NCBI GenBank assembly: GCA_003644925.1
Contig: QNDS01000010.1
Location: 1 to 32,070, forward strand
Length of the DNA: 32,070 nucleotides
DNA from: Candidatus Fermentibacterota bacterium
GTDB taxonomy: Bacteria; Fermentibacterota; Fermentibacteria; Fermentibacterales; JCC-6
Reading direction: 5' to 3'
The notes beneath the pieces are model-generated. The model saw nothing but the letters and a program-made list of their open reading frames with translations. It ran no database searches and was not told where the DNA came from. The translations under genes were made by a program, and so were the position numbers. Within the stretch, counting starts at the first letter, position 1. Each line of letters starts with the position of its first letter. Below, in pieces: positions 1,289-25,931 of the stretch.

Positions 1289-1945
1289 ATGATCGATTTC
1301 ATCACAGCGCTTCGAAGCAAGGTAACAGGTGAAGTTTTTGATTTCCAGGTTCTCATGGATGTTCTTAGCATCTATCGTAAGCCAAGAGATGTCGTTACCA
1401 GACTGCTTGCAGGCGGGATCATAATACGTATCAAGAAGGGGCTTTATTGCTTTGGAGATGCCCTTCGACGAAGACCTGTCAGCCGAGAGTACGTTGCTAA
1501 TCTGATTTACGGACCATCATATGTCAGTCTTGAATATGCAATGCACTACCATGGTCTGATTCCCGAACAAGTCCACACAGTAACTTCTGTAACCAGCAAG
1601 CGATCCAGAGGATTCGATACTCCTCTGGGTGAGTTCTCCTATAGAATGCTCAGTAAAGATCGCTATGCAGTAGGGCAAATACTGGATTCAACCGAGGAAA
1701 CGGCTTTCCTGATTGCTACTCCGGAAAAAGCTCTGATCGATAAGGTTTGGACGGATAGCAGATTTGATGGCACTCGGATATCAGAATTCCAGGAGTATCT
1801 TATTGATGATTTGCGAATTGAGATGGACAGACTCGGAGAGCTGGACAGCAATCTCATGCGAGAAATCTGCAAAGTATATGACTCAGCCAAGATACGTAAT
1901 CTCATGATCTATCTGAAGAGAATCTGGGGTGCTAATAATGCATGA
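1289..1945 (+). CDS. AbiEi-family (type IV TA) antitoxin / transcriptional regulator
   Basis: 218 aa; N-terminal winged-helix-like region (LLAGGIIIRIKKGLYCFGDALRRRPVSREYVANLIYGPSYVSLEYAMHYHGLIPEQVHTVTSVTSKRSRGFDTPLGEFSYR) and ATPEKALIDKVW typical of AbiEi; RBS aggaga; overlaps an AbiEii gene. Confidence 0.85.
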   Translation: MIDFITALRSKVTGEVFDFQVLMDVLSIYRKPRDVVTRLLAGGIIIRIKKGLYCFGDALRRRPVSREYVANLIYGPSYVSLEYAMHYHGLIPEQVHTVTSVTSKRSRGFDTPLGEFSYRMLSKDRYAVGQILDSTEETAFLIATPEKALIDKVWTDSRFDGTRISEFQEYLIDDLRIEMDRLGELDSNLMREICKVYDSAKIRNLMIYLKRIWGANNA

Positions 1946-2804
1946 AGCGATACGATCCATGATGGACGGTTACAGATGTACAACTTTTGCTGATTACAAT
2001 AATGCCCTTCGGGACATATTCCAGCGATTGGCTTTATTGGGACTCTGGCGAAGCAAATTCTTTGAGCATGCAGCATTCTATGGCGGTACTGCTCTGAGGA
2101 TGCTGCATGGGCTCGATCGATTCTCTGAGGATTTGGATTTTTCTCTGCTCAGCTCTTGCCAATCCTTTTCGATGGAAGCTTATGGAGAAGCTCTTCGCAA
2201 GGAGATCGATAGCTTCGGATTCGAAGTAGAGTTTGAGAGTTCAAAGAGCTCAAGAGCGGGAAAGATAGAGTCCGCCTTCCTGAAGACCAATACCTACAAG
2301 CAGTTAATAGCTATAGACGCAGGTAAGGAATTACTAAGTGGTTTTCACTCCGGGAAGTTACTGAAAATCAAACTGGAAGTGGATATCGACCCTCCAGGAG
2401 GATTCGAGACTGGTACGCAGTACATTCTTCAACCAATCCCCTTCCCGGTTCGCGCATATAACCTTCCCGATCTGTTCGCAGGTAAGCTGCATGCGGTTCT
2501 CTGCAGGAAGTGGCGCATACGAGTGAAAGGCCGTGACTGGTATGATATGGTCTGGTATGCTGGTCATCATCCAGAGGTCAACCTCAGCCATCTCGAGATC
2601 AGAATGAAGCAATCAGGTGACTACTCTGAAGGGGATAAGCTGACAATATCGAAACTCCGAGATCTTCTTTTAGAAGCAATTGATGAGTTGAACATTAATC
2701 TGGCTCAAGAGGACATATCTCGTTTCATTAGTGATCCAAGAGAGCTGGATGTCTGGTCGAAGGATTTCTTTCAGCATGTGATAAAACGCATCAAACCGAT
2801 TTAA
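1938..2804 (+). CDS. AbiEii/AbiGii-family nucleotidyltransferase toxin
   Basis: FYGGTALRMLHGLDRFSEDLDFSLL (GGTAL...RxSEDLDF nucleotidyltransferase motif) and later KLHAVLCRKWRIRVKGRDWYDMVWY typical of AbiEii; ATG at 1938 overlaps the antitoxin stop (ORF track extends to GTG 1929). Confidence 0.9.
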   Translation: MHEAIRSMMDGYRCTTFADYNNALRDIFQRLALLGLWRSKFFEHAAFYGGTALRMLHGLDRFSEDLDFSLLSSCQSFSMEAYGEALRKEIDSFGFEVEFESSKSSRAGKIESAFLKTNTYKQLIAIDAGKELLSGFHSGKLLKIKLEVDIDPPGGFETGTQYILQPIPFPVRAYNLPDLFAGKLHAVLCRKWRIRVKGRDWYDMVWYAGHHPEVNLSHLEIRMKQSGDYSEGDKLTISKLRDLLLEAIDELNINLAQEDISRFISDPRELDVWSKDFFQHVIKRIKPI

Positions 2805-2840: not shown

Positions 2841-2885
2841 TCATCCTCTGGATAAGTTCCAAATGCGTCTATTACGGGGTACCAT
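2841..2885 (+). repeat. Direct repeat copy B
   Basis: tcatcctctggataagttccaaatgcgtctattacggggtaccat; same orientation as copy A, 1768 bp downstream. Confidence 0.9.
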
Positions 2886-2886
2886 T

Positions 2887-2930
2887 AGGGACGGAGGTAA
2901 TTGGAAAATTCAATTACCTCCGTCCCTTTT
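2887..2930 (+). terminator. Perfect 17-bp inverted repeat hairpin with short T tract (terminator-like or REP-like palindrome)
   Basis: AGGGACGGAGGTAATTG-gaaaatt-CAATTACCTCCGTCCCT then TTT; starts 1 nt after repeat copy B. Confidence 0.7.
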
Positions 2931-3006
2931 CAGTTACGAGAGATTTCTTAACACATTTCTTCCACAGGTTGTTTCATGCCGCTGTTTTATCCATATTTAT
3001 TATTCA

Positions 3007-5529
3007 ATGAAAATGAAAAAGTCAGGTATTTCAATCGGATCATTGCGTTTTCAGGTATGGAAGCAGCTGATACTAGCCATCCTCCTTATCACCGCAGTCC
3101 TCTATCTGTACGATGGTTACAAGAGAACAAGAAGATCAGCCCTTGAAAGCTACTCCACACAGCAGATGATATATGCCAGCCAGATAGTCAACGATGTCCA
3201 TTTCAAATTCGAACTTATCAGGAATGTTCTTGAACTGTGGAGCAGTTCAGGGGAGATTGTGTACATATCCGATGAAACGCTGTTCTGCATGGAAAGAATT
3301 CTTGCTGCCCACAGCAGTTACATATCCGGGGTCACCCGGATGGATGAAAATGGAATCATACGCGTAACAGTACCGTTTTACGAAGGAACTACGGGTGCTG
3401 ACATATCCTATCAGAGTCATATACAGCAATTAATGGAGCTTCATTGCGCAGTACTCAGCGATGCCTTCATGACGGTCCAGGGTTACTGGGCAATTGCGTA
3501 TCATGTTCCCTGTTTCGATAAAGAGCACTCTTTTCGGGGTTCTCTCGCTTTTCTTGTGCCCTTCCGCGAAATGTTTCGACAACTTTTTACCCAGCTTCTG
3601 CCGGAGAGCTCCACGATCCCGCTGGTTCTCGGCAGTGACGGCCTGATACTGTTCTCACCGCATGTAGAGCATGAGGGAAGGCACTATTCAGATGTCTTCC
3701 CGGTCGGCAGCGGTGAATTGAAGGTGGCAGATGCGGCATTCACCGGCATTACAGGTTACATCCTGACAGATTTCAGCACCTTTGTGGAGAATGAGGATCA
3801 ATCGGAGAATATGCTTTCAACGATCGTTCCCTTCGATTTCCAGGATGTATCATGGATGCTTATCCTCTCTGTTCCTGAGTCTGCCGTAATGAGGAACATT
3901 GCCGGATTGAGCAATAGATGGCTCTGGGGTATGCTGGCCATAATACTGCTGGCGCTGCTTTACAGCACGCTAAAAGTCAGAGTATGGATCACTTCGAAAG
4001 AAGAGAAGAAACGGGAAGACATCGCCCATCTTAAGAATGTTCTTATAAGAACTGTGAATCAGGCTCAGGAGATTATCGTAATTCTCGATAAAAGGGAAAA
4101 AGTGCTTTACGCCAACAGGGCGGCTGTAAAGATATCAGGTTTCGGCAAGGAATTCCTGGACAGCAAGATATCAAAGATTCCCTTCCAGGGTATAGAACCA
4201 GGCATAAGTGAGATAAGGAAGAAGGTTTTCCACAACGGTACCTGGAGTGGTGTTTGTAATGCCAGGGGTGCTAAGAACCGTTTTCTTAGGCTTGATTTAA
4301 CTGTTTCATCCGTCACTGACAGGGATGGAGCTATTACGAATTTTATAATCATCGCCAGGGATGTTACGGTGCAGGCAGAAATGGAGCGGAGACTTTTCCA
4401 GCAGCAGAAAATGGAGGCCATCGGCCAGCTGGCTGGAGGAATAGCGCACGATTTTAACAATCTCCTTGTCGGCATACTCGGTTATGCCGAACTTCTGAAG
4501 AAGCACCACTCAGAAGATGGTGATGTAGCGAAGTCTGCAGATGTTATCATCGCAGCTGTTCATCGGGGATCCGAGCTTACAAGGCAGCTTCTTGGATACG
4601 CTCGAATGGGTAAGCACCAGATAAACCGGATAGATATAGGCCAGTGTGTAAGGAACGTGAACGATCTGCTGAAAAGGACTCTTGATCAGCGAATAAAGGT
4701 CGTACTCAATCTTGAAGAAGGGATATATATAAAAGGAGATTCATCCCAGATAGAGCAGGTTATCCTGAATCTCGCCGTAAATGCCAGGGATGCCATGCCG
4801 GAGGGTGGAGAGTTGAAGTTTTCACTCAAACGGGAAATCATACCCGCGGAAATAATCGGCGGGCAGCAGGAAGGCAGCCCGGTGGAACTCGCAGTACTGG
4901 AAACGGCTGACACCGGGACTGGTATTCCAGTTGAGAACCACGAGAAAATATTCGAACCGTTTTTCACTACAAAAAATGAAGAGGGAACTGGCATGGGGCT
5001 GGCAACGGTATACGGAATCATCGCGAATCATGACGGATGGGTTGATGTTGACAGTCAACCCGGCAAAGGGGCAGTATTTTCAGTTTACCTGCCCCTAGAT
5101 AATACTGATGAAAAAGATGAGGATGAAGAGCCATGGCTGCCAGAGAGAGCATCAGACGGGCTGGGTCATACAGTTCTTGTTGTGGATGATGAATCAACTG
5201 TTGTGGAAACAGTGACCGAACTTCTCTCGGAGGTCGGGTACACTGTGATACCTGTTCCCAACGGAGTAAGAGCTGTTGAAGTGTTCTCTTCAGACCCTGA
5301 TGGATTCGATGCGGTAGTGCTGGATCTATCCATGCCGGAAATGGACGGGAAGGAGTGCTTTAAAATGCTCCGTGATATCGATCCGGATGTTAAAGTCATC
5401 CTCATTACCGGATTCAGTAGAGATGGAAGGGTTCAGGAACTGCTTGATATGGGCGTGAAGGGATTCCTTCAGAAACCTTTCCGTTTGAAGAAACTTGCTG
5501 CGGCACTTACAGACCTGATAGAATCATGA
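3007..5529 (+). CDS. Hybrid sensor histidine kinase (TM - periplasmic sensor - TM - PAS - HisKA - HATPase_c - REC)
   Basis: LAGGIAHDFNNLLVGILGYAEL H-box, VILNLAVNARDAMP N-box, DTGTGIP / GTGMGLATVYGI G-boxes, C-terminal REC (VLVVDDEST...VVLDLSMPEMDG...KPF). Start at 3007 preferred because codons upstream to 2863 cross a direct repeat and a palindrome. Confidence 0.92.
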   Translation: MKMKKSGISIGSLRFQVWKQLILAILLITAVLYLYDGYKRTRRSALESYSTQQMIYASQIVNDVHFKFELIRNVLELWSSSGEIVYISDETLFCMERILAAHSSYISGVTRMDENGIIRVTVPFYEGTTGADISYQSHIQQLMELHCAVLSDAFMTVQGYWAIAYHVPCFDKEHSFRGSLAFLVPFREMFRQLFTQLLPESSTIPLVLGSDGLILFSPHVEHEGRHYSDVFPVGSGELKVADAAFTGITGYILTDFSTFVENEDQSENMLSTIVPFDFQDVSWMLILSVPESAVMRNIAGLSNRWLWGMLAIILLALLYSTLKVRVWITSKEEKKREDIAHLKNVLIRTVNQAQEIIVILDKREKVLYANRAAVKISGFGKEFLDSKISKIPFQGIEPGISEIRKKVFHNGTWSGVCNARGAKNRFLRLDLTVSSVTDRDGAITNFIIIARDVTVQAEMERRLFQQQKMEAIGQLAGGIAHDFNNLLVGILGYAELLKKHHSEDGDVAKSADVIIAAVHRGSELTRQLLGYARMGKHQINRIDIGQCVRNVNDLLKRTLDQRIKVVLNLEEGIYIKGDSSQIEQVILNLAVNARDAMPEGGELKFSLKREIIPAEIIGGQQEGSPVELAVLETADTGTGIPVENHEKIFEPFFTTKNEEGTGMGLATVYGIIANHDGWVDVDSQPGKGAVFSVYLPLDNTDEKDEDEEPWLPERASDGLGHTVLVVDDESTVVETVTELLSEVGYTVIPVPNGVRAVEVFSSDPDGFDAVVLDLSMPEMDGKECFKMLRDIDPDVKVILITGFSRDGRVQELLDMGVKGFLQKPFRLKKLAAALTDLIES

Positions 5530-5589
5530 CGATTATAACCTGTTCTGCATAAAGACCTTCAGGAAGAAGAACTGAAGAGAGAAGGCTGG

Positions 5590-7533
5590 ATGGATATGGA
5601 TAAAAACGAGAGGATACTTGCCGAACAGGCTCTCAGAGATAGCGAAGAACGCTACAGAACATTTGTTGAGGCATCTATGGATGCCATATATCTGGAATCC
5701 ATTGAAGGAGAGATTCTGGACTGCAATGAAGCAGCCTGTGAAATGCTGGGTTACCGGAAAGATGAGCTTATAGGGAAATCTGTCACCGACCTTCTGCCGA
5801 AAAACAAACGGTATCTGCTGCCGGAGATTGTTGATAAGCTTATGTCCGATGGTGAATCCTTTATTGAGGGTGAGAACCTCCGTAAGGATGGTACTACTGT
5901 TCCAGTAGAATCCAGAGCCCGTGTGATAGATACTCCCGCGGGAAAACGGGTTGTGGTTTACGTTCGGGATATCTCCAGGTGGAAACAGTCGGAAAAGGAA
6001 CTGATCGAAAGTGAGAAGCGTTTCCGATCTTTCATGGACCAGCTGCCTGGCGCAGTATTCCTGAAGGATTCGGATAGCAGATACATCTATATAAATCAAT
6101 TCATGAGAAAAGCATTCAATGCCGATGAAAGCTGGATTGGCAAACTAACCTCGGAATGCTTCCCCATGGAAGAAGCACACTCGCTGATCCGGCATGACCG
6201 GGATGCTTTCGATAAGAACTACATCATTGATGTTCAGAAAGTTGTTGATTCGGGCGGGAAAGAACGTATTTTTCAGATACACAAATTCAGGATCTCCAAG
6301 GGAGAGAGTGAAAACGACATGCTGGGGGGTGTCGGTCTTGACGTAACCGATCAACTTAACGCTGAGAAGGCAAGGGTGAAACTTGAAGCGCAGATTCAGC
6401 ATACCCAGAAGCTTGAAAGTCTTGGTGTTCTTGCAGGTGGTATAGCACACGATTTCAACAATATACTGATGGCCATACTCGGTTATGCCGATCTGGCACT
6501 TCTTGACACTTCCGCGGGCAGCCCGGTGGTACCCTCACTTCATGAGATCGAAAAGGCTACACGGAATGCAGCTGATCTGACCAAGCAGATGCTGGCATAT
6601 TCAGGAAAAGGGACATTCCAGATCATCAAGCTTGATCTTAACGAAATTATACGGGAGATGACACACCTGCTCGATATTTCGATATCGAAGAACGCTGTTA
6701 TCAAGTATGATCTGTACGACGGACTTCCAACCATTGAAGCTGACCCGTCTCAGATAAGACAGATCATTATGAACCTGGTAACAAACGCATCCGACGCGAT
6801 GGATAAGACAAGTGGCGTAATTTCAATAACGACCAACCATATGGAATGTGACAGTGAATATCTTTCCGCAGCTTTCATGAACGATCAGCTTCCAGATGGA
6901 AAATATGTTTACCTGGAAGTGTCCGATACGGGTAACGGGATGGACGAAGAAACCCTTTCAAAGCTCTTCGACCCCTTCTTCACCACCAAGTCTACCGGAA
7001 GGGGGCTTGGGCTTTCAGCGGTTCTCGGAATCATCCGCGGGCACAGGGGAACAGTAAAAGTATACTCGGAACTCGGGAAGGGTACTTCATTCAAAATACT
7101 CATTCCCTCAGTTGAAGGTGAACCGGAGCAGACAGCAGTATCAGATGAAAGCGAGCATGATGTTATCCAGAAAGGTACATTGCTTCTGGTAGACGACGAA
7201 TCATCCATTCGCGACATCGGGCAGACCATGCTTGAGAAAACGGGTTATACCGTGATTACTTCCTCAGACGGAAGGGAGGCGCTTGGCATTTTCAGGGAGA
7301 GACATGAAGAAATAGACTGCGTAATCCTTGATCTCACGATGCCGCATATGGATGGTGAAGAAACTTTCCGCGAAATGCGGAGGATACAGAGCGATGTATG
7401 CGTAATAATCTCCAGCGGTTATAACAGGCAGGATGTTACCCGGCGATTCACAGGTAAAGGGCTTGCAGGCTTTATACAGAAACCGTACAGGCTTTCGGAG
7501 CTTACTGCAAAGCTGAAAGAGGTTATTGATTGA
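5590..7533 (+). CDS. Hybrid sensor histidine kinase (PAS - PAS - HisKA - HATPase_c - REC), no obvious TM
   Basis: SEERYRTFVEASMDAIYLESIEGEILDCNEAACEMLGY PAS; LAGGIAHDFNNILMAILGYADLAL; REC TLLLVDDESSIRD...VILDLTMPHMDG. Confidence 0.92.
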   Translation: MDMDKNERILAEQALRDSEERYRTFVEASMDAIYLESIEGEILDCNEAACEMLGYRKDELIGKSVTDLLPKNKRYLLPEIVDKLMSDGESFIEGENLRKDGTTVPVESRARVIDTPAGKRVVVYVRDISRWKQSEKELIESEKRFRSFMDQLPGAVFLKDSDSRYIYINQFMRKAFNADESWIGKLTSECFPMEEAHSLIRHDRDAFDKNYIIDVQKVVDSGGKERIFQIHKFRISKGESENDMLGGVGLDVTDQLNAEKARVKLEAQIQHTQKLESLGVLAGGIAHDFNNILMAILGYADLALLDTSAGSPVVPSLHEIEKATRNAADLTKQMLAYSGKGTFQIIKLDLNEIIREMTHLLDISISKNAVIKYDLYDGLPTIEADPSQIRQIIMNLVTNASDAMDKTSGVISITTNHMECDSEYLSAAFMNDQLPDGKYVYLEVSDTGNGMDEETLSKLFDPFFTTKSTGRGLGLSAVLGIIRGHRGTVKVYSELGKGTSFKILIPSVEGEPEQTAVSDESEHDVIQKGTLLLVDDESSIRDIGQTMLEKTGYTVITSSDGREALGIFRERHEEIDCVILDLTMPHMDGEETFREMRRIQSDVCVIISSGYNRQDVTRRFTGKGLAGFIQKPYRLSELTAKLKEVID

Positions 7534-9101: not shown

Positions 9102-9962
9102 ATGGCAAATTGTTTATTCTGCTCGGATTTGCATGGAAGAACCCGCCGTTACGGGAAACTGTTCCGGGTGATAAGGGATGAGGAACCCGATGCGGTCTTT
9201 CTAGGAGGTGATCTGCTTCCCGGAGCTGTTCAGATCTTTTCAGCGAATTTTCCTCATAATAATTTTGTTACCGATTACCTCGCGGGTGAACTTACACGAA
9301 TCAGGGAGGATCAGGGAACAGCCTATCCGGAGATCTTCCTGATACTTGGAAATGATGATGGACGTTGCGAAGAGACTGCGATTATTGACGCAGAGGAACG
9401 CGGACTGTGGCATTACGTCCATAACAGGAAGCTCAGCCTGGGCTCGTTTCAGATCTACGGTTACTCCTTTGTACCTCCATCACCGTTCAGGCTGAAGGAC
9501 TGGGAGAAATATGATGTGTCCAGATACGTTGATCCCGGGTGTGTTCCTCCGGAGGATGGAATCCACACGGTGCCGGTATCGGATTATGAAATGCGCTATT
9601 CCACCATCAGTGATGACCTTGAGGTTCTTACGGATGGAGATGATCTTTCACGGTCAATAATGCTGTTCCATTCCCCGCCTTACAGGACGAATCTGGATCG
9701 GGCTGCACTGGACGGCAGGATGATCGACCATGCTCCTCTGGATGTCCATGTGGGGAGTATTGCCATTCAAAGGTTCATTAAGAGAAAACAGCCTCTTATC
9801 ACCCTTCACGGGCATATTCATGAATCCTCCAGGATCACCGGTAGCTGGATGGACAGAGAAGGAGGGACATTCATGTTCAGTGCGGCTCACGACGGCCCCG
9901 AGCTTGCTCTTATCAGATTCGATCCGGATGATCCCGAGTCGGCAACAAGGGAGCTGCTCTAA
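9102..9962 (+). CDS. Calcineurin-like metallophosphoesterase
   Basis: MANCLFCSDLHGR, AVFLGGDLLPG, LILGNDDG, LITLHGHIHES metallophosphoesterase motifs. Start set at ATG 9102 because the ORF-track start (9003) reads through the gdhA terminator. Confidence 0.85.
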   Translation: MANCLFCSDLHGRTRRYGKLFRVIRDEEPDAVFLGGDLLPGAVQIFSANFPHNNFVTDYLAGELTRIREDQGTAYPEIFLILGNDDGRCEETAIIDAEERGLWHYVHNRKLSLGSFQIYGYSFVPPSPFRLKDWEKYDVSRYVDPGCVPPEDGIHTVPVSDYEMRYSTISDDLEVLTDGDDLSRSIMLFHSPPYRTNLDRAALDGRMIDHAPLDVHVGSIAIQRFIKRKQPLITLHGHIHESSRITGSWMDREGGTFMFSAAHDGPELALIRFDPDDPESATRELL

Positions 9963-12900
9963 TCCTTTTTTTCCTTCATTGCAAGCGGGCGGGCGGGATC
10001 AGCTACTGAACCTATCTTGATAGCATAGGACTGTTTCTTCTTTATATCGCTGTCCGTAATGATGTGTACATCAAGAAGGTGTTCCGTTTTGAAACCGGTC
10101 CTGATGTAGTTTATCTCACATAGACAGACATCCCAACCGTGGAGATATGATGCCAGCAGTTCACGGCTTCTATCGTCGCTGTTCGTATGGATCAGAAGGT
10201 CTATGTCACTGCATGGACCTGCGGTTGCGTTCTTGGTGCTTCCGAAGAGGTAGATGCCCTTGACACCGTATTTATCCGGATCGATCTCCGAAGCCAGGTT
10301 TTCAGCCATTCGCTGTCTCCACAACCAGTGTTCATCAGGGTTGGAAACAGAGGTCAAGCGGGTATGCGGAAGCAGACCGGACTCTTCCTGACTGGAATCA
10401 TCCTCTGACACAAGATATGCAATGGCCTCGCCTTCGTCCCCACTCATCGCGATTCTCAGAATCCTCCCTCCCGTACTTGCTTTCACATCTATAACCTTCA
10501 CTACATGGTTCAGGTCGGTGCAGTCCGGAAGGAGTTGGCACAGAGCATTCTCACTCTCTTCAAAGAACTCTCTTTTGAAGATAACATTGCCTTCATCAGG
10601 ATAAAGAGGCAGATAGCGTATACCGGCTTCCACAAGATCCTGGAAGAAATGTGTTCCAAAGGAGAGATCCGGTACGTAGCTTCCCTTCCGGAATGCCATT
10701 TCTATGAGGGCTGCAGTATTATTGATATCGGAGTAGGTTACCTGTACGCCAAGCTTTATATCACCTCGGCTGCCCCATCTTCCCGGTCCCATAAGGACGA
10801 AGCTCTTCTTCGAAAGGATACTGTTCAATCTGCCTACGGTTTTTCCGACAGCTACCAGATCCTTCATTTCCTTCAGGCTGTCATACTCCATGGGATCCAC
10901 ATAAACTATATGCGCAATCTCGCGGATGAATCCGTCCGAGATATACTTATCAGCTGTAAAGAGAATATCATCCGGTTCCGGCCGTTCGGTAAGGTGAACA
11001 GCTTCAGTCTGTTCCCAGGAGCTCTGAGCCCTGCATTGAAGCAGATACAGGTTTTCACCATCGGCGGCGAACTCTATATCCACAGGGAAACCGCATTCCT
11101 TTTCCAGAAGAGCAAGGAGGTGTCTCATCGTTTTAAGAAAACCTGTTTTCGGGCTAAGCAGTCCTTCAAAGGTTGGAATCACAAAATCATTCTCGAAATC
11201 CGTTAGCCTGTTGACCTGTCTGATCATTCCATCTTTGTGGGCAGAGAATATTCTTGTGACCTGAGGATATTGCGACCCGTATTCCCGGATGATATCCTCC
11301 ACCTTTACCGTTTCAATCCGCTCCTCTTCCAGGTTGATCACATCCATGAATTTAGGGGCATATCTTACTGTTTCGTCCACGCTTGTGTTTACCCTGAGTC
11401 CGGGCTGTCCCGGAGCCGCCAGCACCGGGAAATCATCACCCAGGCGGTCTACAGCACGTGTCCCGAGACCCGGCACAAGTCTTATCAATCCATCTTTTGT
11501 CCTGATCCTTGCGGACCACCGGAATTCGTTCCTGCTGAAAGCTACCCCGCCGTAAGCGGGGAAATAGTACTTCCCGACCTTTGTGCCGATCACCTGCTGG
11601 ATCAGAATACCCATCTCCTCCTGGAAATCCAGCAGATTCCGCTCGTTCCTGTACTCGATAGCATCGGGGCCGAACATGGAGGCATACACTTCGGCAATTG
11701 CGTCCATGAGGGCTTCCAACCGTTCTTTTTTTGTACCCTTATTCGCGATGAACAGACTTTTGTATTTTCCGCTGAAGGCTGCTTCTATACTATCTTCAAG
11801 GAGGCTTGAACTTCGCACGATCAGAGGGTAATCACCGATCGAATCAAGTGTCATGGAGAGTCCCTGTGTCATCTCGGGGCTGAAAGCGCAATTCTTGAAG
11901 AGCTGGATCAGATTCGGGTACTCCAGCCTGATTTCACCCAGATATCTGTATCTGTATTCAAGGAGCTCTTCAAGGCGGTTGTGATGAACGAAATCGAGTA
12001 TTCCGTCGCTGCAGACATACCATGTTTCAGGGGTTCTGATTTCGGCGAGCAGCGGATCATCACTGCCTGCATTCTTGATTATCTTTTCAGCCATGAACAG
12101 TCCCGCGCCCTTCCCTCCAAGCTGTCCGTGACTTCTGGCGGGAATGATCAGGGAATTCGTCAGCTGATAGAAATCCTTGATTGAGATCAATTCTTTAAGA
12201 CGGCTTATATAGTCAAGCCTTCTGCTTACCAGCCTTCTTATCAGGGATACCTTCAGAGCATTCAGAACCGGTTTCGAAAGGGTCGCTTCCTCAGTTACAA
12301 TTCCCTTGTGGTCATCCATGGCCTGCAATATTTCGGGAAGAGAGCTGGCATGGTCATCCAGTACGTTGATAAGATGTTCTATCCTGTTCTCCCCGATCCA
12401 CCTCTGAAGCAGGCTAAGTATTTGCTCATCGCTTAAATCCCTTCCTGCGATAGAAAAGATTTCCTCAACAAGTTCGAAGCTGATATCGAACTGCTGTCTT
12501 GGGATCGGCTGGTTGATACCCAGATGGTCAAGGTCAGCATCCTGAGTGGAGGTCTGGCCAGCAAATCTGTTCAGCAGAGCCGTGGCATCGGTTATCCCTA
12601 TGAAGCTCATATAATTCAGAAGTCTTCTGGATAGCGTCTGGTATAGCTTCCTGTCCGTAATGAGAAGCATATCCAGAATAGCTCTCCAGGATTCTGATCC
12701 GTTTCGTACGTCGGAACTATCGGTGTCTTCCCCCTCGAACATCTGGGAAAGGCTGTCATGCAGAATTGTATGGCTTATTCTTCGGGCCAGCGTCTTTATC
12801 AGCTTTTTCTCTTCTTCAAGGAATGCACTGCCCTTCTCCAGTTCGGGTGCCCGGGCGGGATAGGAAACGGATATCTGCCCGACGATGCTGTCGTTGATAA

Positions 12901-13159
12901 CCAGATTCTCCGAGAGTTCAGGTCCACCCTCATGGTATGCTGTCGATGTATACTCATTGTTCCTGTAGATTATCCTGGCTCTGCAGTGAGCAGGGCTGTA
13001 CCAGCCCTGAGGCATAGATTCCGCGACCGCCTGAAGTTTCTTCTCGAGGGGGACATCGCTCATCAGGATTTCATCAGCCATATACAGACAATTAAGTTCC
13101 TTTGCTCTCTCCCGGAGGGAGTTCACCAGTATTTGAGAGTCACTTCCCTTATCAGTCAT
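9959..13159 (-). CDS. PEP/pyruvate-binding (PPDK_N-like) protein with N-terminal sensor-like region and C-terminal nucleotidyltransferase
   Basis: 1066 aa; N-terminal RERAKELNCLYMADEIL; ATP-grasp motifs LIVRSSSLLEDSIEAAFSGKY and FPVDIEFAADGENLYLLQCRAQS; GPGRWGS...GTHFF domain; C-terminal GIYLFGSTKN...SDIDLLIH nucleotidyltransferase motif. Confidence 0.85.
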   Translation of the reverse strand: MTDKGSDSQILVNSLRERAKELNCLYMADEILMSDVPLEKKLQAVAESMPQGWYSPAHCRARIIYRNNEYTSTAYHEGGPELSENLVINDSIVGQISVSYPARAPELEKGSAFLEEEKKLIKTLARRISHTILHDSLSQMFEGEDTDSSDVRNGSESWRAILDMLLITDRKLYQTLSRRLLNYMSFIGITDATALLNRFAGQTSTQDADLDHLGINQPIPRQQFDISFELVEEIFSIAGRDLSDEQILSLLQRWIGENRIEHLINVLDDHASSLPEILQAMDDHKGIVTEEATLSKPVLNALKVSLIRRLVSRRLDYISRLKELISIKDFYQLTNSLIIPARSHGQLGGKGAGLFMAEKIIKNAGSDDPLLAEIRTPETWYVCSDGILDFVHHNRLEELLEYRYRYLGEIRLEYPNLIQLFKNCAFSPEMTQGLSMTLDSIGDYPLIVRSSSLLEDSIEAAFSGKYKSLFIANKGTKKERLEALMDAIAEVYASMFGPDAIEYRNERNLLDFQEEMGILIQQVIGTKVGKYYFPAYGGVAFSRNEFRWSARIRTKDGLIRLVPGLGTRAVDRLGDDFPVLAAPGQPGLRVNTSVDETVRYAPKFMDVINLEEERIETVKVEDIIREYGSQYPQVTRIFSAHKDGMIRQVNRLTDFENDFVIPTFEGLLSPKTGFLKTMRHLLALLEKECGFPVDIEFAADGENLYLLQCRAQSSWEQTEAVHLTERPEPDDILFTADKYISDGFIREIAHIVYVDPMEYDSLKEMKDLVAVGKTVGRLNSILSKKSFVLMGPGRWGSRGDIKLGVQVTYSDINNTAALIEMAFRKGSYVPDLSFGTHFFQDLVEAGIRYLPLYPDEGNVIFKREFFEESENALCQLLPDCTDLNHVVKVIDVKASTGGRILRIAMSGDEGEAIAYLVSEDDSSQEESGLLPHTRLTSVSNPDEHWLWRQRMAENLASEIDPDKYGVKGIYLFGSTKNATAGPCSDIDLLIHTNSDDRSRELLASYLHGWDVCLCEINYIRTGFKTEHLLDVHIITDSDIKKKQSYAIKIGSVADPARPLAMKEKKD

Positions 13160-14844
13160 TTCAGTACTACCCCCAATCCTTTTCTGCCATCAATTTTTAC
13201 TGTTACTCCCTCTTCTATTTTCAGACAGCGGATATGTTCTGTCTCATGCACAATTTCACTTCCATCACTGATAATGTCCAGGTTAACCGGACCGTCAAGC
13301 GGTTCGTTCACAGAAAGATAACCCACGCCGAAACTGGAGAGATTGTGGAAAAAATGTGATCCCTGACTGAGTTCAACCCGCATTCTCGGTCCGGAGATCT
13401 CGATCATAGCTTCAGCGCCGGATATATGTCCCCAGGTTACAGGTATACCGAGCCATGGATCGGAGCTTCCCCAGCGGCCATAACCGATCAGCAGATACCC
13501 TTGGTTCTCTTTTGAGAGCTTCCTGTTAATTCCCGCAATCTCCGTTGCGATCTGCCTGGTTTTTGATGTGCTGAAAGATTCAGGCTTAACGTATACAACG
13601 TACTTTATTTCCTTAATGCCGTTGCCAAGAGCCCGGCGGGAGAAGGCCACAGTTCTCGCTCCCCGGATTTCCGCTTCCGGTATGTCCACCTCCTCTCTGA
13701 ATGAGGCTATGGGCCTAACCTGAAGCAGTCCGAGCGATGCGTCTTCCGATCGTCCCGGTCCCGTGACAGCGAATTCAATTTCCACAGGTCCATCCGCTTC
13801 TTCCGAGCATAGTTCAAGAACAGCGCGAACAGCATCGTTGAGGGGAATTACACGATCATCAAGAACCGGTGCGAAGTTAACCACTTTGGGGCCTTCTCTG
13901 CCGGTTCCGTGTACGAACCTGTCAGATTCAGGCAGATATGTTGATGCTACCAGCTTAAGCGTGTCATCGTAGTCAGCGTCTGCAAGAGGGGATGATATCA
14001 TGTACTCGGTTTCCGCAACAGGATCGTAAACAGTGATCTTTTCCATGTTTACCGCCCAGAACGTACTCTGAGTTCCTTTGAGAATATCGCCGGCTGAACC
14101 GAATGGAGGGGGCGCCTTGGGATTGGCGGGACTGTAGCTCCAGCAGAGCCCTCCGTCAACAATGCTCTTTCCGAGGCCAAGGGCCAGACTCACTACTCCA
14201 TCGGAAGGATTCGCTTTCCCGAATGCATAGTAGTTGAACGAGCGCGCCACTCCGGATATCAAGGGGTAGAACCTGTTGCCGTATCTCCTTCCGACTACTT
14301 TCTGAAGGATTACTGCCATCGTCTCTTCGGAGGCGGAGCCGCCTATCCCTCTGTGAAATTCCCTAGAATCACTGAAGTATGTGCTGGCCCAGACAAGTTT
14401 AACAGCTTCTATCAGTTTTCTGAAGCGTATCTCGTCCGACGGCTGATTGTTCGGGATCATTTTTGTCTGATATATACCGGCCAGTGGAGATTTTAGATCA
14501 TCCTCCAGGAGGCTTGAAGATCTGACCGCTACCGGTTCACGGGTTTTACCAACGAACTTCCAGAGTTCACCTGTCAGCCTCGGAGACATCTCTCCCCTGA
14601 TAAAAGCCATGGCAATTCTGTCATCAGAATCATTACCTTCAGCATAGGATACGAGATCGTTGCGTTGAACGAAATCCAGGAAGAACTCAGTAGTTATAAC
14701 CGAAAACTCCGGTACGGAAACGTGCATTGGAAACGATGCATTACTCCCGCGATCGAGCAGGCTTTCGATCATGCTCACCAGGCCGGATGCTTTCCCTCCG
14801 ATCCTGCTGTCGCCGTAGAATTCCGTACCTGGAACTTTCCTCAT
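13156..14844 (-). CDS. PEP-synthase-like PPDK_N/ATP-grasp protein without a phospho-His or PEP-binding domain
   Basis: 562 aa; GGKASGL, VAVRSSSLLEDDLKSPLAGIYQT, LLQVRPI (end of PPDK_N), then GYGRWGSSDPWLGIPVTW...SQGSHFFHNL shared with the downstream 1066-aa paralogue; ATGA overlap with it. Confidence 0.82.
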   Translation of the reverse strand: MRKVPGTEFYGDSRIGGKASGLVSMIESLLDRGSNASFPMHVSVPEFSVITTEFFLDFVQRNDLVSYAEGNDSDDRIAMAFIRGEMSPRLTGELWKFVGKTREPVAVRSSSLLEDDLKSPLAGIYQTKMIPNNQPSDEIRFRKLIEAVKLVWASTYFSDSREFHRGIGGSASEETMAVILQKVVGRRYGNRFYPLISGVARSFNYYAFGKANPSDGVVSLALGLGKSIVDGGLCWSYSPANPKAPPPFGSAGDILKGTQSTFWAVNMEKITVYDPVAETEYMISSPLADADYDDTLKLVASTYLPESDRFVHGTGREGPKVVNFAPVLDDRVIPLNDAVRAVLELCSEEADGPVEIEFAVTGPGRSEDASLGLLQVRPIASFREEVDIPEAEIRGARTVAFSRRALGNGIKEIKYVVYVKPESFSTSKTRQIATEIAGINRKLSKENQGYLLIGYGRWGSSDPWLGIPVTWGHISGAEAMIEISGPRMRVELSQGSHFFHNLSSFGVGYLSVNEPLDGPVNLDIISDGSEIVHETEHIRCLKIEEGVTVKIDGRKGLGVVLK

Positions 14845-24578: not shown

Positions 24579-25931
24579 GTGCCCGAACTCTTCGATACCC
24601 ATTGCCACCTCTCTGATGAGCGGTTTTGCGATGATCTCGACAGGGTGCTTGCCTCTGCTGCAGAATCAGGTGTGACCGGATTTCTGGTTCCCGGCATATC
24701 ACTGGAGAGCAGCCGTAAGGCGGCTTTCCTTTGCGAAACCAGAGCCGGCGTATACGCGGCTGCGGGAATTCATCCGAACGAATTCGATTCGGATTATCCA
24801 GATGATTTCGCCGATATAGCAGAAATACTCCTCCGCCCCCGTGTGATAGCTGTTGGAGAAACCGGGTTGGATTTTTACCGGGAAAGGACTTCTGCTGAGC
24901 TTCAGATCAAGATGTTCCGCAATCATATCAGACTTGCAGAATCATTAGGATTAACACTTGTAGTTCACTCCAGAAATGCCGAAAGGGAGGTTCTTGATAT
25001 TCTCGGGAATGATGTTGCCGTCCCGGTTATAATGCACTGCTATACCGGACCTCCTGATGTTGCGCTGGAGGCTGCTCAAAGGGGATATTACATCGGGTTT
25101 GCGGGTCCTTTGACTTTCAGGGGGAACAACCGGCTGCGAGATCTTGCCGGATCGCTTCCGCCTGACAAAATCCTTATCGAAACGGATGCTCCTTATCTCT
25201 CTCCAGAGCCTCTCCGGGGGAGACGAAACGAACCTTCCAATGTTAAGTACATGGCCGATACCATTTCAGCAATATGGGACAGAGATCCGGCGCTGACCGC
25301 AGAAACACTTATGACTAATTCCCTGAAAGCTCTGCAGCTTGGACCATTTCAAAGAACAGACCTTGTATATTTGCTGTATGGGAATATTTATATGAACATT
25401 ACAGGCAGGTGTTCAAATCGATGCAGATTCTGTATTAAAGATAGAGCAGACGGTATCGGAGGCTACTACCTTGCACACCATGGAGAACCCCTCGAGGGGA
25501 GACTTGAATCCATTATTGAAACACTGAGCCCCAGTATGGGAGAAGAGCTTGTTTTCTGCGGATACGGTGAACCGACCATGAGACCTGAACTTCTAAGGAG
25601 GCTTGCCCGTAAGGCTGCAGGCAGAGGATTTTCCGTAAGGCTTAACACAAACGGGACCTGTTTATCGTGGCTTTCCCGTGAAGAAACAGTTTTGCTTCTT
25701 GAACCATTTGATGCTGTTAGCATCAGTCTGAACACTTCCTGCGCAGAGGAATACAATACTATCTGCCGCCCTGCGGACGGGAACGCATGGGACAGATTGA
25801 TGGAGTTCATTGAATTGGCGGGAAGGCTTGCTTTCGTCAGCCTCACCGCTGTAAGATATTCAGGTGTTGAAATAGAATCGGTAGAGAAACTGGCGAAGAC
25901 CCTGAGTTTGCCGCTTCGGATAAGAGGGTAA
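24579..25931 (+). CDS. TatD-family metal-dependent hydrolase fused to a TatD-linked radical SAM domain
   Basis: GTG start; N-term FDTHCHLSDERF...GETGLDFYRE...VIMHCYTG...LIETDAPYLSPEPLRG (TatD); C-term ITGRCSNRCRFCIKD (CxxxCxxC) and FCGYGEPTMRPELL (radical SAM), one open frame. Confidence 0.92.
   Translation: MPELFDTHCHLSDERFCDDLDRVLASAAESGVTGFLVPGISLESSRKAAFLCETRAGVYAAAGIHPNEFDSDYPDDFADIAEILLRPRVIAVGETGLDFYRERTSAELQIKMFRNHIRLAESLGLTLVVHSRNAEREVLDILGNDVAVPVIMHCYTGPPDVALEAAQRGYYIGFAGPLTFRGNNRLRDLAGSLPPDKILIETDAPYLSPEPLRGRRNEPSNVKYMADTISAIWDRDPALTAETLMTNSLKALQLGPFQRTDLVYLLYGNIYMNITGRCSNRCRFCIKDRADGIGGYYLAHHGEPLEGRLESIIETLSPSMGEELVFCGYGEPTMRPELLRRLARKAAGRGFSVRLNTNGTCLSWLSREETVLLLEPFDAVSISLNTSCAEEYNTICRPADGNAWDRLMEFIELAGRLAFVSLTAVRYSGVEIESVEKLAKTLSLPLRIRG

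Follow-up and report, generated by a model that had tools for sequence, protein, structure and literature searches.

What might be the role of two proteins that carry the ATP-grasp domain of PEP synthase and PPDK, but for which the remaining machinery of these enzymes is not apparent? This question is raised by two adjacent genes on a contig (G000:C10) from a Candidatus Fermentibacterota MAG, the complete contig being the 32,070-nucleotide stretch that we analyzed and refer to as the window. A first-pass annotation of the DNA considered the encoded proteins, here termed B and A, to be a coupled pair of ATP-grasp paralogs of unclear reaction. It mentioned neither the domain with an invariant histidine that both proteins share, nor the GAF-like N-terminus and nucleotidyltransferase of A, nor the linkage of the family to glutamate dehydrogenase (GDH). 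Taking these features together, we favor, with a rough probability of 0.5, the reading that B and A work as a regulatory pair of ATP-grasp/histidine phosphotransferases, from a large uncharacterized family, that controls glutamate formation. As such the pair is probably an undescribed switch for nitrogen assimilation.

A coupled gene pair from a widespread family

The layout of the locus is given in Table 1. Translational coupling of the two reading frames, as first annotated, is borne out by an ATGA at positions 13159-13156, read on the minus strand, in which the stop codon of B overlaps the start codon of A. Overlapping B-A pairs occur in several families, with the same 4-base overlap at family loci L027, L032, L033 and L085 and overlaps of 8-14 bases in other families. 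A and B are also paralogs as had been claimed, with 27% identity (E 1e-38) spanning the ATP-grasp domain and the domain that follows it, and a tree separates them into lineages that are older than the sampled families. The earlier idea that the two proteins may work as a hetero-complex gains from this coupling, which sequence comparison finds conserved across families.

Table 1. Features of the B-A locus and of the adjacent genes (window coordinates).
Feature	Position	Strand	Details
GDH, 428 aa	7748..9034	+	PF00208 E 4.9e-71, PF02812 E 1.7e-55; convergent with the A-B operon
Calcineurin-like metallophosphoesterase, 286 aa	9102..9962	+	ATG at 9102; PF00149 E 1.7e-9; 4-base convergent overlap with A
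Protein A, 1066 aa	9959..13159	-	GAF-like, helical, ATP-grasp, C-domain and nucleotidyltransferase, in this order
A MNT-like nucleotidyltransferase	10010..10339	-	residues 941-1050; G973-S974, D985-x-D987, D1030
A C-domain	10409..10972	-	residues 730-917; GRWGSRGD ... SFGTHFF; profile A1
A His837 codon	10649..10651	-	invariant, 169/169 relatives having the column
A ATP-grasp	11018..12127	-	residues 345-714; GGK350, R449SSSLLED, E696, Q708, R710
A helical region	12158..12691	-	residues 157-334; predicted model
A GAF-like sensor region	12722..13147	-	residues ~5-146; Foldseek: GAF-PHY 8w26, NifA GAF 8jrc, prob 1.0
B stop/A start overlap	13156..13159	-	ATGA; translational coupling
Protein B, 562 aa	13156..14844	-	PPDK_N-type ATP-grasp and His-containing C-domain only
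B C-domain	13159..13656	-	residues 397-562; GRWGSSD ... SQGSHFF
B His497 codon	13354..13356	-	candidate phosphoryl-accepting His; invariant; first residue of helix 497-504
B ATP-grasp	13705..14808	-	residues 13-380; GGK18, R108SSSLLED, E357, Q375, R377

A profile of the shared C-domain has matches in 104 of 385 sampled genomes, which are mostly MAGs from species that are not independent of one another. The tree splits the family into B, A and C lineages, and its subtypes include B (562-590 aa), A (~1060 aa), B' (~990 aa, with a receiver-like N-terminus), A' (~780 aa, lacking both the GAF domain and the nucleotidyltransferase) and a C-type of ~870 aa. Their N-termini are variable and sensor-like, being GAF, receiver-like or helical. 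Close named relatives, from the scan of one collection in which only Fermentibacterota were found, are Ca. Sabulitectum and Fermentibacteraceae. A tblastn search of plasmids added three Bacteroidota members, while neither C-domain motif was found in one Fusobacteriota protein that this search returned. Three divergent members (L137, L138 and L140; ~440-556 aa) have a duplicated GSHF loop, and each adjoins a conserved ~485-aa gene without a Pfam match; L137 itself has none at E<=0.01. Elsewhere in the genome of the window, a 700-aa frame (L212, G000:C90) contains the PPDK_N-like motif RCRSSTNNEDLPGF and has a weak PEP-synthase match, with none of the C-domain motifs that were searched for being found in it.

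Linkage of the family to glutamate synthesis

When the genes neighboring family members were clustered, GDH was the commonest partner. Outside of the window's order, 28 of 48 GTDB families have GDH near their member gene, mostly within about 350 bases, compared with none of 20 control loci centered on canonical PEP-utilizer genes (rough chance about 5e-42). Glutamate synthase GltB takes the place of GDH in three further families (L123, L125 and L127), and the nitrogen regulator NrpR adjoins members L117 and L118. The retrieved flanks contain no GDH in 20 of the 48 families (17 once glutamate synthase is counted), and therefore the GDH link is not universal. The type of GDH also follows the subtype, with A lineages mainly accompanied by 428-type enzymes and B' lineages by ~450-type enzymes. 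Additionally, all 17 genomes outside of the order with a GDH from the clade at least 67% identical to that of the window carry the family, against a background of 66/343 (hypergeometric 1e-13, calculated over related genomes that are not independent).

The linkage extends to Bacteroidota. For example, a Parabacteroides distasonis relative that is annotated only as a "PEP/pyruvate-binding domain-containing protein" is transcribed divergently from gdhA, and another GDH gene lies downstream. The protein with this annotation beside gdhA in Bacteroidota (WP_041525632.1) belongs to the same family as judged by its ATP-grasp domain and its GRWGSSD and SQGTHFF motifs; unlike the A/B pair, it is one protein of ~985 aa that is nearest to the B lineage and has no annotated function. 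A literature survey of PPDK_N, of how GDH is regulated and of the gdh locus in Bacteroides, which covered few subscription papers, turned up no description of the family and no characterized function for the pair.

Several other genes recur at these loci. Homologs of the metallophosphoesterase adjoin A in L077, L080-L082, L084 and L085. At L021, L023, L024 and L029, B'-type members and GDH are near NfnA-like (DHODB Fe-S) and NfnB/GltD-like (Fer4_20 and Pyr_redox_2) genes, which suggests a connection with the supply of NADPH to GDH. Directly upstream of GDH in the window are two tandem hybrid histidine kinases with CckA-like matches (2863-7533, plus strand), and kinases resembling them are found ahead of this locus in L030 and L031 as well.

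ATP-grasp domains and their relatives

A and B are members of the PPDK_N ATP-grasp superfamily. The PPDK_N landmarks that the first-pass annotation had read in both proteins correspond to matches of PF01326 to A (residues 346-725, E 2.2e-53, 182 bits) and to B (residues 14-385, E 2e-31, 110 bits), well above the gathering score of 27. The catalytic residues have not been lost: in an alignment of 89 sequences R108, E357 and Q375 of B are invariant and K18 and R377 are present in at least 90%. Binding of Mg-ATP by this domain is predicted with strong sequence support. Foldseek searches with predicted models matched the ATP-grasp domain of B to Rph, HpeI, PEPS and PPDK and that of A to Rph, HpeI and PEPS, the best matches being rifampin phosphotransferase and HpeHI (5hv1, 9goj). 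A sequence search against solved structures returned only the ATP-grasp domain of Rph and PEPS for A and no meaningful match for B. Assignment to a named enzyme through NCBIfam gave only sub-threshold matches; TIGR01418 (PEP synthase) scored 45 bits, far under its cut-off of 740 bits, and weak matches to the PPDK_N-type ligases PigC and RedH were confined to the ATP-grasp domain.

A and B thus resemble PEP synthase and PPDK (TIGR01418, TIGR01828) in having the ATP-grasp fold, its catalytic residues and a His-bearing domain that follows, but differ in having no PEP/pyruvate barrel and no detectable PF00391. Neither PF00391 nor PF02896 matches A or B even at E<=1, PF00391 matches only two other loci in the whole genome, and neither predicted model has residues left that could accommodate the PF02896 TIM barrel. 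The canonical phospho-His domain (GGxTSH) is ruled out at the profile level by these two PF00391 searches together with hhalign (probability <1%) and an alignment anchored on the ATP-grasp domain. By these tests, which agree with the first-pass annotation, A and B are neither PEP synthase, PPDK nor PF00391 proteins.

One rival explanation is that the pair constitutes a metabolic enzyme, whose ATP-grasp/His module acts on a small metabolite of glutamate metabolism, by phosphorylating or activating it, with GDH simply catalyzing a neighboring step. All of the structural relatives that were found (Rph, HpeI/HpeH, PEPS and PPDK) act on small molecules, linkage to GDH and GltB fits a pathway too, and the HpeHI two-component dikinase, which is split over two proteins with its ATP-grasp working as a separate subunit (PMC12167813), keeps this explanation alive. 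However, Rph and HpeHI have a substrate-binding domain and a canonical swivel, neither of which was detected in A or B. B is composed of the ATP-grasp domain and C-domain only, with no acceptor-binding domain, the family N-termini are sensor-like and variable, and A bears a nucleotidyltransferase. We favor regulation because the sensor domains are modular, B has no domain that could bind an acceptor and the family is linked to glutamate-forming enzymes; a new metabolic step is in our view unlikely though credible.

An invariant histidine in the shared C-domain

The same ~165-residue domain directly follows the ATP-grasp domain in A and B. It has no Pfam model (no match at E<=1) and is recognized by the pattern GRWGSxD...SxG[ST]HFF. 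Aligning 171 members of the family shows the SxG[ST]HFF His to be invariant in all 169 that have this column; the GRWGS Arg, G804 and E820 (numbered as in A) are likewise invariant. The second alignment, of 89 sequences, gave the same invariants, which in B are G456-R457, E482 and His497. In AlphaFold models of B (pLDDT 91.8, pTM 0.88) and A (pLDDT 82.8), the elements of the C-domain are ordered b-b-a-b-a-b-[SxG(S/T)H]-a-b-a-b-b with the His starting a helix, and we take this to be the strand and helix order of the PPDK/PEP-synthase phospho-His domain as well. The distance from LLQxR to the His is 127 residues in A and 120 in B, presumably near to the spacing in PPDK.

Sequence homology to the canonical domain was not detected. 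An hhalign search of the C-domain against a set of 22 canonical phospho-His domains gave no signal (probability <1%), the alignment anchored on the ATP-grasp domain had very low confidence over this region, and the Foldseek search with the B model listed no separate match for the C-domain. In the absence of an HMM-HMM signal, we regard the swivel assignment as likely rather than established. A phosphocarrier role of the C-domain with the His as putative acceptor has a good chance of being correct; probably the domain is a phosphocarrier that has either diverged very far or is merely analogous, and A and B may work like a His-swivel phosphotransferase. The earlier claim that both proteins lack phosphotransfer machinery holds for PF00391 but is doubtful as a general statement, as the same position is taken up by a domain whose invariant His lies at the start of a helix and whose order of elements matches. 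For a divergent PEP-utilizers mobile domain, the HMM-HMM comparison gave no signal, yet the invariant His and the same order of elements are present. If the carrier reading is true, this would be a new carrier-type domain for the PPDK/PEP-synthase fold group.

It is also conceivable, though distinctly improbable in our estimation, that the C-domain is not a phosphocarrier and that its invariant residues (GR, E and SxGxH) make up an additional catalytic site in a ligase-type ATP-grasp protein that works through an acyl-phosphate, for example to modify GDH or an amino acid. The undetectable homology to PF00391, the additional invariants G456-R457 and E482 beside His497 in B and the weak PigC and RedH matches fit such a ligase. 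Against it, these matches span only the ATP-grasp domain, and the C-domain follows directly after the ATP-grasp domain with the matching element order and its His at a helix start, as the phosphocarrier reading would have it.

Sensor and nucleotidyltransferase domains of A

A carries additional domains on both sides of this core. Its GAF-like assignment is structural, as the Pfam GAF model PF01590 reaches its cut-off only in homolog L028. At the C-terminus, PF01909 matches with E 3.7e-7 (30.9 bits vs 21), Foldseek returned HEPN-MNT 8xeh (8xeh_E, prob 0.98) and 2rff, and almost all of 22 A-type proteins retain the GS...DxD...D residues. By residues and predicted fold, this is an MNT-type nucleotidyltransferase with an intact active site. 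One A-type protein (L092:3904-6636) has lost the DxD (SKIEL) while keeping the GS and the third Asp. The domain resembles HEPN-MNT and type VII TA nucleotidyltransferases in fold and in these residues; unlike them, it is fused to an ATP-grasp protein, has no HEPN toxin and occurs in a nitrogen-metabolism context.

A defense or toxin-antitoxin role for MNT-bearing A, to which weak PADLOC matches (nucleotidyltransferase PDC-S09, E 2.8e-6; phosphoesterase PDC-S10) and an AbiEii gene elsewhere in the window might point, is dismissed as extremely improbable, given that B has no PADLOC match, no HEPN partner was seen and the GDH/GltB linkage is conserved across many families.

A model for control of glutamate formation

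In the regulatory reading that we prefer, the ATP-grasp domain would bind Mg-ATP and phosphorylate the His of the mobile C-domain (His497 in B, His837 in A), as occurs in PPDK, PEP synthase and rifampin phosphotransferase. Judging from neighborhood and modularity, the phospho-domain would then act on a protein partner, most likely GDH, or pass phosphate between B and A; a protein partner is proposed because neither B nor A has a small-molecule third domain. A would sense a ligand through its GAF-like domain, and its nucleotidyltransferase may add a second, AMPylation-like modification. The adjacent metallophosphoesterase could perhaps remove one of the marks, which is the weakest step of the model.

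The closest functional parallel is VadK (Rv1127c) from M. tuberculosis, a PPDK-derived protein that phosphorylates itself on His422 and adjusts the flux through its partner enzymes (PMC13400623). Like A and B, VadK has a PPDK-type ATP-grasp domain followed by a His domain, and it is a reported regulator of metabolic-pathway enzymes (PMC13400623). It differs in its descent from PPDK, with a His that aligns with that of PPDK (PMC13400623), whereas the C-domain of A and B is not PF00391-like. A and B, in turn, differ from VadK in being two coupled paralogs with GAF, nucleotidyltransferase and GDH linkage. In the best explanation, the pair would target GDH or its signals and be functionally VadK-like. 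We infer GDH as the target, which neighborhood alone does not establish.

GDH is a main entry of ammonia into biomass, and we know of no general bacterial GDH-modifying enzyme that has been established. The family, carried by roughly one in four sampled genomes (human-gut Bacteroidota among them), is a concrete candidate for such a modifier; it is annotated by its ATP-binding half alone and repeatedly lies beside GDH or glutamate synthase. More tentatively, there could be widespread post-translational control of ammonia assimilation, in which an ATP-grasp/phosphohistidine protein, often with a GAF and nucleotidyltransferase paralog, would reversibly modify GDH. If true, this would be the GDH counterpart of GlnE/GlnD control over glutamine synthetase.

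Other features of the window

The AbiEii nucleotidyltransferase toxin gene (1929-2804, plus strand; PF08843 E 3.6e-33) is overlapped by an upstream 218-aa ORF that occupies the antitoxin position and has no Pfam match. By sequence and arrangement, these genes (1289-2804, plus strand) are a type IV toxin-antitoxin-like pair. Further along the window, a single ORF (24579-25928, plus strand) encodes a TatD DNase domain (residues 1-251) fused to a radical SAM domain (residues 272-442).
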